Source: a bacterium
GTDB taxonomy: Bacteria; JAHJDO01
NCBI GenBank assembly: GCA_030611945.1
Contig: JAUWOV010000083.1
Span: forward strand, 1 to 6,994
DNA length: 6,994 nucleotides
Reading direction: 5' to 3'
Each line of letters begins with the position of its first letter. The first letter of the stretch is position 1. Positions 316 through 6,994 of the stretch are shown here, in pieces. The position numbers and the translations under genes were made by a program. The notes under the pieces are model-generated. The model saw only the letters and a list, made by a program, of their open reading frames with translations. It made no database searches and was not told the origin of the DNA.

Positions 316-1152
316 ATGCCGAAAAGAACTGATATTCATAAGATTTTAATTATAGGTTCCGGCCCTATAATTATAGGCCAAGCTTGTGAGTTTGACTATT
401 CAGGCACTCAAGCGTGTAGAGCGCTTAAGGAGGAAGGGTATGAAGTAGTGCTTGTAAACTCCAACCCTGCTACTATTATGACAGATCCTGGTACAGCTGA
501 TAAAACATACATAGAGCCGCTTACTGTAGAAAGCCTTGAAGAAATTATCAAGAAGGAAAAGCCGGATGCGCTTCTTCCTAATCTTGGAGGACAGACAGGA
601 CTTAATCTTGCATCCAGTCTTCACAGCGCAGGAGTATTGAAAAAATATGGAGTTGAGGTTATTGGTGTTAAAGCAGATGCCATCAAGCGTGGAGAAGACA
701 GGGTTGCATTTAAGAAGACAATGAATAAATTGGGCATATCTCTTCCCAAATCTGAACCGTGTTATTCTGTGAAGGAAGCTGAAAATATAGCAGAGAAGCT
801 TGGTTACCCTGTGGTATTGAGACCTGCATATACTATGGGAGGCACGGGTGGCGGAATAGCATATAATGTGGAAGAACTCAGAACGATCGTAACTCGAGGA
901 TTGTCAGTTAGCCTTGTTCATCAAGTTCTCGTTGAAGAGTCTGTGCTTGGATGGGAAGAACTTGAGCTAGAAGTCGTAAGAGATGATAAAAACCAGAAAA
1001 TCACAGTCTGTTTTATTGAAAATATTGACGCTATGGGCATACACACACAGGAGACAGCTTCTGCTCCGCGCCTATGCTCACAGTTCCAAAAACGCTGCAG
1101 AAACGTATGCAGGATATTTCTTATAGGATCGTTGATGCTATTGGTGTTATAG
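316..1152 (+). CDS. carB: Carbamoyl-phosphate synthase large subunit, N-terminal part (frameshifted)
   Basis: CarB uses two ATP, bicarbonate and ammonia to make cytoplasmic carbamoyl phosphate for pyrimidine and arginine synthesis. This frame encodes most of the first (carboxyphosphate) ATP-grasp unit. Visible are the pre-ATP-grasp loop [17 protein letters not shown] at residues 14-30, the [12 protein letters not shown] segment, the GGQTGLN segment, the glycine-rich ATP loop [14 protein letters not shown], and the acidic ELELEVV stretch. CarB similarity runs to about residue 244 (GIHT, base 1047). The last ~34 residues are out-of-frame sequence unlike CarB, ending at a stop at 1150-1152. The reading continues in the frame of the next entry after skipping two bases. 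The ATG is supported by AAGGAG and by the normal CarB N-terminus. No carA precedes it. As read, this piece alone would be inactive. Family identification is very secure. Confidence 0.95.
1041..1049 (+). other. carB: Frameshift site in carB at an ACACACACA tract
   Basis: The upstream frame reads G-I-H-T through 1047. Skipping CA (1048-1049) and resuming at GGA (1050) gives G-D-S-F-C-S-A-P and then M-L-T-V-P, the sequence expected of CarB. The joined protein has 244 + 830 = 1074 residues, matching the usual ~1073. The tract therefore seems to carry one extra CA unit. Dinucleotide slippage in the cell, or a sequencing or assembly error, would explain it. No X-XXY-YYZ slippery heptamer is present. 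Confidence 0.85.
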
Positions 1153-3542
1153 GCGGCACAAATGTTCAGCTTGCGCATAATCTTAAGGATGACAGGTTAG
1201 TAGTGATAGAGATCAATCCCAGAACGTCGCGCTCATCTGCTCTTGCCTCTAAAGCGACTGGATTTCCAATAGCCCGTATCTCCACAAAGCTTGCTGTTGG
1301 CATTACACTGGATGAGATTCCGTACTGGAAGAAAGGAACTCTTGAGAAATATGAACCCAGTGGAGAGTATGTAGTAATTAAATTTGCGCGCTGGGCTTTT
1401 GAAAAGTTTCCGGGAGCCAAGGATATACTTGGAACACAGATGAAGGCTGTAGGCGAAGTAATGAGCATAGGGAAAACATATAAAGAATCCTTCCAAAAAG
1501 CCATCCGTTCTCTTGAGATAAGCAGATGCGGTCTTGGCGGAGCTAAGAACTTTAAAACACTTTCCCTTGAAAGATTGAAAGAGAAATTAGCAACACCCTC
1601 CAGCGAACGTATTTTTCTGATGTATGAGGCGCTGCGCAAGGGTATGAGTGTAGAAGAACTTTACCAGATGACCTACATCGGACGTTGGTTTATTAAAGAG
1701 ATGAAGGAACTTGTAGAATTTGAGGAAGAATTAATTAAAAACACATGGGAAAATCTTCCTGAAGGAAAATTGGCAAAAGCAAAGGAGTGGGGATTTTCAG
1801 ATAAATATCTGGCAGGACTTTTTGAAGTAAAAGAAAAAGAGGTCAGACAAAAAAGAATCGCCATAGGCAAATGTGGATGTTTTGAAGCTGTGCCTGTAAG
1901 CGGAGTAAAGAACGCCGCTTATTATTATTCCACTTACAATGGGGAAGATTCGGTTCCTGTATCACCAAAAAAGAAAATAATGATTTTAGGCGGCGGACCT
2001 AATAGAATCGGGCAGGGTATTGAATTTGATTATACATGTGTACACGCAGCTTTTGCTTTGCGGGATGAAGGATATGAGTCAATTATGGTTAACTGCAATC
2101 CTGAAACCGTATCTACTGATTATGACACTTCAAATAAGCTTTATTTTGAACCTTTAACAGTTGAAGACGTACTCACAATTTACGAAAAGGAGAAGCCTAA
2201 AGGTGTTATTGTTCAGTTTGGCGGACAGACCCCTCTGAATATTGCTCAGGAATTAAAGAATAACGGTGTAAAAATTCTTGGGACAACTCCCGAAAGCATA
2301 CATCTTGCAGAGGATAGAGAACGTTTTAGAGAAAAAATGATCGCTCTTAATATTCCACAGCCGGAGAGCGGCATAGCGCGTTCATTAGACGAAGCCCTTA
2401 TAACTGCCAAGAAGATAGGATATCCTCTCATGGTGCGTCCGTCTTATGTGTTGGGAGGACGCGGGATGCAAATTATTTATGACGAAGCTATGCTGAGAGA
2501 TTACGCCATTGAAGCTATTCAGGTTAGTCCGGAGCATCCAATGCTTATTGATAGATTTCTTGAGCAGGCTGTAGAGGCAGAAGTTGATGCTATTTCCGAT
2601 GGAGAAAATACATTTGTAGCATCTGTTATGGAACATATAGAATTAGCCGGTGTTCATTCAGGAGATTCCGCATGTGTCATTCCATCAAGAACTATTAAAA
2701 AAGAGCATTTAAATACTATAGGACAATATACATCAGCAATTGCAAAGGAATTAAATGTCGTAGGTTTAATGAACATTCAATACGCAATATGTGATAATAA
2801 GGTTTATATACTGGAGGCTAATCCAAGAGCTTCGCGTACAGTTCCAGTAGTCTCTAAAGTAACAGGTATTCCAATAGCCCATATAGCAACTCAAATAATG
2901 CTGGGTAAAAAGATCCATGATTTTCCTGAACTAAAAACTTCCAAGCTTCCTTATGTAGCCGTTAAAGAAGCGGTTTTCCCGTTTAACATGTTTCCGGAAG
3001 TGGACCCTTTACTAGGCCCGGAGATGAGAGCGACAGGAGAAGTTATGGGTATTGCTGATACATTCGGACTTGCTTTTTATAAGGCAGCAGAAGCAGCCGG
3101 TTCAAAGCTTCCACTTAAAGGTAATGTGCTTTTGACAATAGCTGATAAAGACAAACCTTTTTTGATTCCCATTGCTCAACGAATTAAAAAACTTGGTTTT
3201 AGTATTTATGCTACAAAAGGCACAGCTAAATTTCTAAAAGAGAATGGCATACAGAATATAGAAATAAAAAAATTGCATGAAGGAAGACCAAATATAACCG
3301 ATGCAGTCAAAAACAAAGAAATCAATCTTATTATCAATACACCTGTTGGGCGCAGCGGGAAACATGATGACAGTTATATTCGCAGAACTGCAATACAGCA
3401 CAGGATTCCATACATTACTTCAATAACAGCTGCAGAAGCCAGTGTTGAGGGGATTGAATCCGTATCCAAAACTAAAAGTTCACCAAAATCTCTTCAGGAT
3501 TATCTCAAGGAACTTGAACACTCATGCCAACAAGAAACATAA
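1074..3542 (+). CDS. carB: Carbamoyl-phosphate synthase large subunit, C-terminal part (frameshifted)
   Basis: This is the rest of CarB. CarB-like sequence in this frame really begins at 1050; the ATG at 1074 is an internal methionine of the intact protein, so it is probably not a true start. In order it holds: the end of the first ATP-grasp unit (NVQLAHN, then [18 protein letters not shown]), the helical oligomerisation region (about residues 150-290), the second carbamoyl-phosphate ATP-grasp unit from about residue 300 ([49 protein letters not shown]), and the C-terminal MGS-type allosteric domain from about residue 682. In that domain the ATKGT, HEGRP and IINTP motifs resemble the E. coli UMP-binding site, although the last one has Pro where E. 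coli, from memory, has Thr. Feedback by UMP is thus possible but inferred. The next gene starts 22 bases after the stop. Confidence 0.95.
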
Positions 3543-3564: not shown

Positions 3565-4557
3565 ATGGATAAAAAGATAGATAGAATGAGCGTTAGAAAT
3601 CTGTCTAAAGGACAGGTAATAGTATATAGGAATAAAGTCGAAGTCAAGCTTGATAAGGAGACGGTCTGGCTGAATCTTAATCAGATGACAGATTTATTTA
3701 ATAGAGATAAATCTGTTATATCACGTCATTTGCGTAACGTCTTTAAAGAGAAAGAGTTAAACAAGAGTTCAGTTGTTGCAAATTTTGCAACAACTGCCGC
3801 TGATGGGAAAATATATCAGGTTGAATATTTCAACTTAGATGCGATTATCTCAGTGGGATATCGAGTTAACTCCAAGAGAGGCACCCAATTTCGCGTCTGG
3901 GCAACAAATGTGCTTAAGCAACATCTGGTTAGCGGATATACAATCAATGAAAAACGGCTAAAAGCTTCAGAGCATAAATATCGAGAATTACAGAAATCGT
4001 TAAGACTTTTAGGCAACGTTATTCAGATTGAGGCAGTTTCAAGTGAAACAAAAGGACTTATTCAGGTGATAACCGAATATTCGCATGCGCTTGATATTTT
4101 GGATGATTTTGATCATGAGCGGCTTTCTGTGCCAAAAGGAACAAGACAATCAAAATTTAAGTTTACCTATGAAGAAGCTAGAAAAATCATTGAAGCTATG
4201 AAGCGAAAATTTAAAGATTCAACACTTGTTGGACAGGAAAAAGACGAAAGTTTCAAAAGTTCAATTGGGACGATTTGCCAAACATTTGGCGGCGCAGACC
4301 TTTATCCAACCGTTGAGGATAAGGCAGCTCATTTATTATATTTTGTTACTAAAAACCACAGTTTTGTGGATGGAAATAAACGCATTGCAGCAGCGCTTTT
4401 TATTTGCTTCTTGCAAGGCAATGGGCTTTTGGTCCGAAAGAATGGAGATAAACGGATTGATGATAATACACTTGTAGCCTTAACACTTATGATTGCAGCC
4501 AGTAAAGCGTCCGAAAAAGAGACAATGATTAAGGTGATATTGAATTTATTGGGATAG
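3565..4557 (+). CDS. RhuM family protein with C-terminal Fic/Doc domain
   Basis: This 330-residue protein joins two domains. The N-terminal part (about 10-130) is RhuM-like, with WLNLNQMTDLFNRDKSVISRH, a DNA-binding-like segment, then FNLDAIISVGYRVNSKRG and TQFRVWATNVLKQHL. A helical linker follows. The C-terminal part (about 200-330) is a Fic/Doc fold with the motif H265-S-F-V-D-G-N-K-R273. Fic enzymes transfer AMP or other phosphate-containing groups to proteins. The Lys in place of the second Gly of HPFxxGNGR is Doc-like, and phage P1 Doc phosphorylates EF-Tu, so a kinase-like activity is possible but unproven. RhuM is named after a Salmonella pathogenicity-island gene of unclear role. No Phd-like antitoxin is adjacent and no inhibitory (S/T)xxxE(G/N) helix motif was seen. 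The start is uncertain: ATG 3565 lacks a clear ribosome binding site, and ATG 3586 is an alternative. Identification is strong; the function is open. Confidence 0.9.
   Translation: MDKKIDRMSVRNLSKGQVIVYRNKVEVKLDKETVWLNLNQMTDLFNRDKSVISRHLRNVFKEKELNKSSVVANFATTAADGKIYQVEYFNLDAIISVGYRVNSKRGTQFRVWATNVLKQHLVSGYTINEKRLKASEHKYRELQKSLRLLGNVIQIEAVSSETKGLIQVITEYSHALDILDDFDHERLSVPKGTRQSKFKFTYEEARKIIEAMKRKFKDSTLVGQEKDESFKSSIGTICQTFGGADLYPTVEDKAAHLLYFVTKNHSFVDGNKRIAAALFICFLQGNGLLVRKNGDKRIDDNTLVALTLMIAASKASEKETMIKVILNLLG
3770..3796. repeat. 27-bp perfect inverted repeat inside the RhuM-Fic gene
   Basis: CAGTTGTTGCAAA (3770-3782) and TTTGCAACAACTG (3784-3796) are exact reverse complements around a single T. 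The repeat lies in the RhuM-domain codons for S-V-V-A-N-F-A-T-T-A. The protein motif there is a conserved RhuM segment, which may account for part of the symmetry. A mRNA hairpin or a self-binding operator are alternatives. Confidence 0.7.
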
Positions 4558-4569
4558 TTTTAAAAATAA

Positions 4570-4575
4570 AAGGAG
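4570..4575 (+). promoter_or_regulatory. Ribosome binding site that fixes the PurF-like start
   Basis: AAGGAG lies 8 bases before the ATG at 4584. An in-frame TAG at 4578-4580 sits between them, so the protein cannot begin further upstream. This matters because it rules out a hidden propeptide carrying the usual PurF cysteine. Confidence 0.85.
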
Positions 4576-4583
4576 CATAGAAA

Positions 4584-5975
4584 ATGGACGGAATATTCGG
4601 AGTTGCCCTAAAAAAGGATTGTTCGGAGGTTTTATTTTATGGAACGGATTACCATTCTCATTTAGGAACAGAATACGGAGGGCTGGCAGTATTAGGGAAA
4701 AAATTATCCAGAAAGATTCACGCAATCAGCGGAGGACAGTTTAAGAGCAGGTTCTATGAGGATTATAAGAAAATGAAAGGGAAATCCGGCATTGGGGTAA
4801 TATCCACAATGGAGGAGCAGCCGATATATCTAAATTCAAAATTCGGACACTTATGTATTGTCAGTAACGGCTTAATCACTAATGCGGATTGTTTGACCAA
4901 TGGTTTGCAAAGACAGGGAATCTCGTTTAGTGAGACAGCTAAAAAAGGAGTGAACAACACTGAATTAGTTGCAAAACTAATAAATCAGGGCAGTAGTTTA
5001 GTAGATGGAATAGAAAATTATTTTAAAAGAATCAAGGGTTCCTGTTCCATCCTAATCTTACATAAGGACGGCATCTATATTGCCAGAGATAAACTAGGCT
5101 ATTCTCCTTTGATCATAGGTAAATCCAAGGAAGGCTGGGCAGTAACTACAGAAACCTCCGCTTTTTTCAATCTGGGATTTAGCATAGAAAAATATGTTAA
5201 GCCGGGCGAGATATTGCTTTTAAAGCATACTGGATTTAAAGTTCTTAAAGAAGAGGAGCCGAATCAAAAGACAGATACGTTTTTATGGATCTATACCGGT
5301 TTTCCTGCATCTAATTATGAGGGGATAAATACAGAAGAAGTAAGAGAGCGCTGTGGAAAATTTTTAGCAAAAAGAGACAACGTTGAAGCGGATTTAGTAG
5401 CAGGAGTTCCGGACTCGGGAACTACGCATGCTATTGGTTATGCAATAGAATCAAGGATGCCTTTTAGACGTCCTCTGGTTAAATACAATCCCGGTTATGG
5501 AAGGAGTTATATACCTCCTTCCCAAAGCATAAGAGACCATATTGCCAAAATGAAGCTGATCCCAATTAAAGAGATAATTAAAGGAAATAGAATCATTTTA
5601 TGTGAAGATTCAATCGTAAGGGGTACTCAGCTTAAAAGCTATACTATCCAGAAGTTATGGGAAAGTGGGGCAAAAGAGATTCATGTCAGGGTTGCGTGTC
5701 CGCCTCTGTTGTTTCCTTCCAAATTCGATTATTCTACCAAGAAAAAAGAAGAACTGGTTGCAATACGCACAATAAGAGCTTTAGAAGGCAAGGATATAAA
5801 AGATGTGAGTGAATACATTGATTCTAATTCAAAAAAATACAAAAAAATGGTAGATTGCATTGCAAAAGAATTGGACGTTACCACATTAAAATATCAAACC
5901 ATTGAAGACATGGTAAAAGCAATAGGATTACCCAAAGAAAAACTTTGTCTTTATGTATGGACAGGGAAGGTCTAA
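4584..5975 (+). CDS. PurF-like phosphoribosyltransferase lacking the glutaminase cysteine
   Basis: This 463-residue protein has the two-domain layout of amidophosphoribosyltransferase, which makes phosphoribosylamine from PRPP and glutamine-derived ammonia. The C-terminal phosphoribosyltransferase half looks intact: [16 protein letters not shown], the [20 protein letters not shown] block, and the PRPP loop C340-E-D-S-I-V-R-G-T348. The N-terminal Ntn-glutaminase half is degenerate. It begins M-D-G-I-F-G where PurF has (M)C-G-I-F-G, so the nucleophile is Asp. The usual HVRYST is shortened to GIGVIST (69-75), losing the glutamine-binding Arg. SNG (94-96) still matches the HNG motif. [12 protein letters not shown] replaces the usual LQHRGQ region. 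The C-terminal KLCLYVWTG keeps only one of the paired cysteines of Fe-S-type PurF. It probably cannot hydrolyse glutamine and may use free ammonia, another nucleophile, or only bind PRPP. The upstream gap is 26 bases, and its stop overlaps the next start. Confidence 0.88.
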
Positions 5976-6994
5976 TGGATAAAAAAATAGGTTTTGATAA
6001 TGAGAAGTATCTAAAAGAACAGACTAAGGCTATTCTTGAAAGGGTTGAGGGAGCCGATAATAAACTGTATCTTGAGTTTGGCGGAAAACTTGTTTTTGAT
6101 TTTCATGCTTCAAGGGTTCTGCCTGGATTTGATCCTAATGTGAAGATACGTCTCTTGCAGCAACTAAAGGACAAGGCAGATATCTTGCTCTGTATTTATG
6201 CAGGTGATATTGAAAGAAAAAAAGTAAGAGCAGACTTCGGAATTACATACGATGCTGCAGTGCTTAAACTAATCGACGATTTAAGGGATTGGGATATTGG
6301 CATACTGGCAGTTGTAATAACACGTTTTGAAGATCAGCCGGCAACCAGAATATTTAGGAACAAATTGAAGCGCAGAAACATAAAGGTTTATACTCATACA
6401 TTCACAAAAGGATACCCTACAGACGTGGATTTAATTGTAAGTGATGAAGGTTATGGAGCAAACGAGTATATTGAGACCAAGAAACCTCTTGTTGTAGTTA
6501 CCGGACCAGGGCCAGGCAGCGGGAAGCTAGCCACATGTCTTTCTCAATTATATCATGATTATAAAAGAGGAATGAAAAATGAATATGCAAAATTTGAAAC
6601 ATTTCCTATATGGAATCTGCCTCTTAAACATCCGGTAAACGTGGCTTATGAAGCAGCAACAGCGGATTTAGGGGATTTTAATATGATAGATCCATTTCAT
6701 CTTGAAATATATAACAAAGTAGCTGTGAATTATAACAGGGATGTAGAGGTATTTCCTGTACTTAAGAGGATATTGGAGAAGATAACAGGATCTGAGTCAA
6801 TATATAAGTCACCTACTGATATGGGTGTAAACAGAGCCGGGTTTGGAATCATAGATGACGAAATAGTAAAACACGCTGCAAAGCAAGAGGTAATAAGAAG
6901 ATATTTTAGATGTGCCTGCGAATATGTAATGGGTCTTGTGGATAAGGAAACCGTGCAAAGGGTGGAGCTCATTATGGAGGAGCTTAATCTTAAG
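5975..6994 (+). CDS. DUF1846 (UPF0371) family protein, 3' end cut by the window
   Basis: The reading frame is open from ATG 5975 to the window edge (340 codons, no stop). The translation starts [16 protein letters not shown] and carries the family hallmarks: [20 protein letters not shown] near residues 32-51, [28 protein letters not shown] around residues 174-186 (P-loop-like, G-x4-GKL), [41 protein letters not shown] and [10 protein letters not shown]. From memory, family members are near 500 residues, so roughly 150 are missing. The biochemical function is not known to me; the P-loop-like loop suggests nucleotide or phosphate binding, which is inference. The ATG overlaps the PurF-like stop by one base (TAATG), and AGGGA at 5963-5967 can serve as its ribosome binding site, so the two are likely translationally coupled. 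Confidence 0.92.

Follow-up and report, generated by a model that had tools for sequence, protein, structure and literature searches.

The first step of purine synthesis is, by the textbooks, a glutamine-fed, channelled reaction, and the stretch of DNA analyzed here (6,994 nucleotides; hereafter, the window) raises the question of what a PurF-like protein does once its glutamine-handling residues are gone. The gene concerned, a pseudo-glutaminase PurF paralogue of 463 amino acids, occupies positions 4584 to 5975 of the plus strand, stop codon included. The first-pass annotation had set its start at 4584, and direct reading of the sequence confirmed this; i.e., a ribosome-binding site (AAGGAG; 4570 to 4575, plus strand) lies 8 nt upstream of the ATG, and an in-frame TAG at 4578 to 4580 rules out a start further upstream. 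The protein aligns across the full NCBIfam equivalog profile of purF (TIGR01134) with a score of 205 bits, which is below the cut-off of 350 bits for a canonical PurF. It matches Bacillus subtilis PurF (1gph and 1ao0) at E ~1e-59, and the AlphaFold2 model (pLDDT 92, pTM 0.89) resembles B. subtilis PurF along its entire length (TM 0.84 to 0.86). As modeled, the open reading frame is a complete PurF fold. Such an alignment across TIGR01134 could cause the protein to be miscounted as PurF in pathway reconstructions.

At the position of the catalytic N-terminal cysteine, the window protein has Asp2 (4587 to 4589, plus strand), as the first-pass annotation had stated. Position 2 is Ser in 46, Gly in 47, Asp in 4, and Thr in 1 of the 99 distinct family members, with a gap in the remaining one; Asp is restricted to the genus of the window, and Ser, Gly, or Thr is found elsewhere. 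Cys is absent from all 98 scored N-termini, which disposes of a point mutation in the window gene, since close homologues would then have retained Cys2. The Arg of the HVRYST motif had also been reported as lost; this proved correct, and the lesion is larger than had been described, because the entire glutamine loop is missing. The canonical HVRYSTxG segment aligns to Ile73-Ser74, followed by a deletion of YSTxG, and Ser74 (4803 to 4805, plus strand) lies in the column of the glutamine-binding Arg, which is Ser in 99 of the 99 members. The canonical LQHRGQE region is replaced by a signature at residues 20 to 29 (4641 to 4670, plus strand), in which GTDYxSHLG is near-invariant in the family and position 26 is His in all 99 members. 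The suggestion that this signature marks a distinct PurF-like family was borne out, and every scored member lacks the N-terminal Cys.

Cys13 (4620 to 4622, plus strand) is near-invariant as well, being Cys in 97 of the 98 scored members and Ala in one (L067), with a gap in one more of the 99. If Cys13, which had been proposed as a substitute nucleophile, or the Ser, Gly, or Asp N-terminus took over the attack, the protein would still be a glutaminase. The conservation of Cys13, and the Val found at that position in a Cys-bearing sister sequence (L165), are in keeping with such a role, but Ntn amidotransferases use a free N-terminus, and Cys13 is an internal residue with no free alpha-amino group that L067 replaces by Ala. 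The glutamine-binding Arg and loop are gone in all members, and the N-terminal residue itself varies among Ser, Gly, Asp, and Thr. We consider continued glutaminase activity very improbable.

Comparisons among species of the window's genus give a dN/dS of 0.05 to 0.07 for the whole gene, the glutaminase half, and the phosphoribosyltransferase (PRT) half alike; only a closely similar pair (L005 and L006) falls below this range, and its N-terminal half is almost unchanged. Purifying selection on the dead glutaminase half implies that this half is retained for a function. The frameshift in carB upstream on the same contig indicates that errors or decay do occur nearby; however, a decaying gene, a point mutation, or an assembly error is refuted here by identical lesions in 99 distinct members from about ten phyla and by a dN/dS of about 0.05, which leaves this explanation a negligible probability. 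The glutaminase half of the window protein is dead as a glutaminase, yet it is kept as a folded, selected domain. The earlier formula of "a different reaction rather than decay" thus stands in its rejection of decay; as to its first part, the loss of glutamine use fits the same reaction on ammonia, or a regulatory role, equally well.

The PRPP-binding half, on the other hand, looks intact, and the motifs listed for it in the first-pass annotation (PDSG, GRSYIPPSQ, and EDSIVRGT) are all present in the window protein. The conserved PRT-domain motif VPDSG lies at residues 275 to 279 (PDSG at 276 to 279; 5406 to 5420, plus strand), and the flexible-loop region at residues 300 to 314 (5481 to 5525, plus strand) contains GRSYIPPSQ at residues 306 to 314 and a family-specific extra residue at Lys300-Tyr301. 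The PRPP loop, DDSIVRGTT in canonical PurF, is EDSIVRGTQ at residues 341 to 349 (5604 to 5630, plus strand), on a PRT fold within the TM range given above; DSIVRGTQ is near-invariant in the family, and its last residue, Thr in canonical PurF, is Gln349 in 99 of 99 members.

In canonical PurF of the B. subtilis type, a [4Fe-4S] cluster is held by four Cys. Three of the four positions are altered in the window protein, where Asp231 (5274 to 5276, plus strand) corresponds to Cys236 of B. subtilis PurF, Ser379 (5718 to 5720, plus strand) corresponds to Cys382, and the segment Cys455-Leu-Tyr-Val458 (5946 to 5957, plus strand) retains Cys at the third position and has Val at the fourth; two of the four ligand columns (Cys236 and Cys382) were verified against the numbering of 1gph. 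Asp or Asn, Ser, Cys, and Val occupy these positions throughout the window's genus and in Omnitrophota bin66 (L034), and four Cys are found in the full-length members outside this group. As the window's genus and L034 are sisters in the tree at 100/100, a single loss of ligands on the branch leading to them is the simplest reading.

Taken as a whole, the family shares with canonical PurF (EC 2.4.2.14, B. subtilis type) the fold, the domain order, and the PDS(G), GR(S/T), and DSIVRGT motifs, and most members also share the four cluster ligands. It differs from canonical PurF in lacking the N-terminal Cys, the HVRYST loop with its Arg, and LQHRGQE, in the Gln that follows DSIVRGT, in the one additional residue of the flexible loop, and, in the window clade, in the absence of three of the four Fe-S ligands. 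A contig scan of genomes yielded 64 loci of relatives with 43 to 94% identity, and the carriers include Omnitrophota, Planctomycetota, Krumholzibacteriota, Elusimicrobia, Latescibacterota, Firestonebacteria, Acidobacteriota, Prevotella, a Thermoplasmatales archaeon, and Asgard archaea. The 99 distinct members span about ten phyla of bacteria and archaea, Asgard archaea included. The family profile (threshold E 1e-90) was also run on 193 genomes sampled without bias, at mostly one per family; it matched 18 of them, or 15 when counted by genus, three of which belong to the sister group described below. A literature search, confined to one library, returned no paper describing the family, the 2011 report on PurF' being the only relevant one. 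Judged by sequence, this is a widespread, little-noticed bacterial and archaeal family of PurF-like proteins. One carrier, Prevotella communis E15-14 (L084), is in culture, which makes genetics possible.

The family forms one clade in the trees (100/100, and 99 in another tree), and its closest relatives are a sister group of three 444-residue open frames (L164, L165, and L166). These resemble the family in the RGTQ loop, the C-terminal CLxCx, and the absence of the glutamine loop; DUF1846 lies beside one of them (L207) and carA-carB beside another (L208). They differ from it in that LQHR(G/A)Q is kept and PDSG is changed (PNSG or PFSG). L165 retains Cys together with LQHRGQ and RGTQ, while its HVRYST loop is already gone; in L164 and L166 the Cys is missing and LQHR(G/A)Q is kept. 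These few sequences suggest an order of loss in which the glutamine loop would have gone first, the nucleophile later, and LQHRGQ last; such stepping-stone sequences open the order of events to testing.

The nearest known parallel is the crenarchaeal PurF', a Cys-less PurF paralogue encoded beside canonical purF and purine genes, for which ammonia dependence has been proposed but not tested (Brown et al. 2011, PMC3261824); Cys-less paralogues of PurF and an ammonia proposal are in this respect already known. The family likewise comprises Cys-less paralogues close to purF and purine genes, although the window has carB and DUF1846 as neighbors instead, and a contig shared with purF is seen only in the relative G003. 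Five archaeal second copies (L197 to L201), presumed to be PurF', are in tandem with canonical purF, with purD next in several, and they also lack the HVRYST loop. Unlike the family, PurF' retains Q(N/H/T)RGQE and, in the PRPP loop, the double Thr/Ser, and it has neither GTDYxSHLG nor Gln349. It forms a separate clade (100/100), although topology tests that join PurF' and the family (p-AU 0.89 and 0.31) did not reject the joining, and a single origin of the two was thus neither demonstrated nor rejected. On alignment and tree evidence, the family is set apart from PurF' by its signature and PRPP loop, by its phylogenetic range, and by where it falls in the tree.

Gene neighborhoods were counted within 4.5 kb at the 64 named loci, and the key labels were verified by NCBIfam. 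The neighbors include purM (13), a LOG-family gene (11), purL (9), carB, DUF1846, and canonical purF (7 each), purB (6), purQ (5), and purD and purE (4 each), and at least one pur gene is present at 18 of the 64 loci. The Omnitrophota order purL-LOG-purQ-pseudoPurF-purF-purM-purD-purE is complete in L060; in L034 the paralogue lies between purL and purM, and at this point L060 and L046 read pseudoPurF-purF-purM. At the 11 loci with a LOG-family gene (TIGR00730), this gene stands just 5' of purQ or of the paralogue within the purine operon (e.g., L060, 6429 to 7079).

Linkage of this kind, i.e., the paralogue beside purF in Omnitrophota, near purF-purM in Planctomycetota, and adjacent to canonical purF in 29 of the 35 carriers that the sampled relatives of G094, an Asgard genome, include (mostly divergent, as read from coordinates; the genomes are related and not independent), would suit a non-catalytic or weakly catalytic partner that regulates canonical PurF, either in mixed oligomers or by sensing PRPP, nucleotides, or, through its Fe-S cluster, redox state. 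The Fe-S ligands retained outside the window clade agree with such a partner, as does the co-occurrence of canonical PurF in most carrier genomes: purF scores above the curated cut-off in 33 of 50 other carriers, with a lower-scoring one in several more, and it is present in most carriers of the near-complete sample. Against it, three of the window genus's four near-complete genomes, and G249 (a draft MAG, 96% complete), yielded no canonical PurF, and strong purifying selection persists in the window's genus, PRPP half included, despite the undetected PurF. We regard a regulatory partner as possible, if on the unlikely side.

Whether the genome carries a separate canonical purF, as the first-pass annotation had asked, has two answers in the window's genus. 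None was detected in the window's own MAG (G000, 91% complete), in G002 (96%), or in G004 (95%), which are draft MAGs in which any single absence may reflect incompleteness; G003 alone has both genes, on one contig in the order purF-pyrG-gdh-carB-pseudoPurF. All five genomes of the genus examined contain purM and purD. G002 and G004, both without a detectable canonical purF, have a second, lower-scoring purD copy (G002:C126 and G004:C68).

The persistence of purD and purM without a detectable purF, together with the retained PRPP site and the behavior of Cys-less E. coli PurF, which loses glutamine use and keeps ammonia use when its N-terminal Cys is changed to Ala or Ser (PMC3261824), makes an ammonia-dependent reaction the best supported explanation. 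We tentatively favor, with a confidence that falls short of even, the view that the window gene encodes a glutamine-independent, probably ammonia-using PRPP aminotransferase paralogous to PurF. As the part that supplies nitrogen from glutamine is lost, another source such as free ammonia would probably be used, and PRPP and ammonia not derived from glutamine would be converted to phosphoribosylamine (PRA) or a close equivalent. The protein would then give purine synthesis a second entry that does not depend on glutamine, which may be the sole one in lineages where no canonical PurF is detectable, most of the window's genus among them. The family-wide loss of the Cys, Arg, and glutamine loop beside retained PRPP motifs and a whole PurF fold, the low dN/dS of both halves, and the linkage to purF, purM, purL, purB, purQ, purD, purE, and carB all support this reading. 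On the opposite side, most family genomes also have canonical PurF and so do not need a simple substitute for it, the invariant, family-specific Gln349 and Lys300-Tyr301 would be superfluous in a PurF that used ammonia alone, the purF-less genomes are draft MAGs, and a stronger form of the idea, in which other glutaminases are lost as well, failed because the window's genome retains purQ and hisH.

Because PurF is usually present in the same genomes and the loops carry changes specific to the family, both the regulatory partner and a further explanation stay alive. Under the latter, the protein would be a distinct PRPP transferase that operates alongside canonical PurF in bacteria and Asgard archaea; phosphoribose would pass from PRPP to an acceptor other than ammonia, and the former glutamine pocket (GTDYxSHLG and Cys13) would have been rebuilt to bind, guide, or deliver this non-glutamine substrate. 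New invariant residues in that pocket, the PRPP loop, and the flexible loop, coexistence with canonical PurF, and an association with DUF1846 point in this direction; DUF1846 occurs in 7 of 15 families bearing the paralogue or its sister group and in 6 of the 175 remaining families (Fisher p 5e-6). The linkage, however, is to the main purine pathway and to no distinct one, and the purF-less genomes keep the other purine genes and would need another source of PRA, so that we judge a new acceptor unlikely. A conserved paralogue that, in bacteria and archaea alike, keeps the PRPP half and discards glutamine use points to a putative second entry into purine synthesis or a second site of its control.

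The DUF1846 gene of the window (5975 to 6994, plus strand) lies directly downstream of the paralogue and is cut at the contig end. DUF1846 is often linked to carB, and a Clostridioides difficile DUF1846 protein is listed as essential, its role not being known (PMC12548448). The syntenic locus reads pseudoPurF-DUF1846-purQ-purL-hisH-hisF in G003 and pseudoPurF-DUF1846-purL-hisF in G002 and G004, whose purL genes (L111 and L112) are about 50% identical to that of G003 (L094). The lack of purQ and hisH at this locus in G002 and G004 suggested ammonia-fed biosynthesis; wholesale loss of glutaminases was nevertheless rejected for the window's species, in whose genome purQ and hisH are on contig C9 (L332). 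In Omnitrophota bin66 (G060), which was read in stretches, purF, purQ, glmS, asnB, and pyrG were not found, and hisH, guaA, and a TrpG-like protein are present; little weight is given to these absences because only 17 of the 20 tRNA types were recovered and a junction appears to be chimeric. The same bin has two carB-like genes (L254, 8272 to 11376; L272, 12704 to 15937), one of which lies beside genes labeled by eye as gdh, glutamine synthetase-like, and DUF1846.

The upstream neighbor in the window, carB (carbamoyl-phosphate synthase large chain; 316 to 3542, plus strand), is split into two frames by a 2-base frameshift near 1041; the difference from the intact G003 gene falls in an AC repeat and is either an assembly error or a real frameshift. 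Between carB and the paralogue, an inserted gene (3565 to 4557) encodes a fusion of RhuM and Fic (both Pfam), which is absent from the same place in G002, G003, and G004. Biosynthetic operons of this genus (L033, L116, and L332, 13961 to 17067) have ORF6N, RadC, methyltransferase, and HTH/Panacea antitoxin-like genes between their own, where they interrupt carB/pseudoPurF/DUF1846 and purQ/purL in a pattern resembling repeated small insertions.
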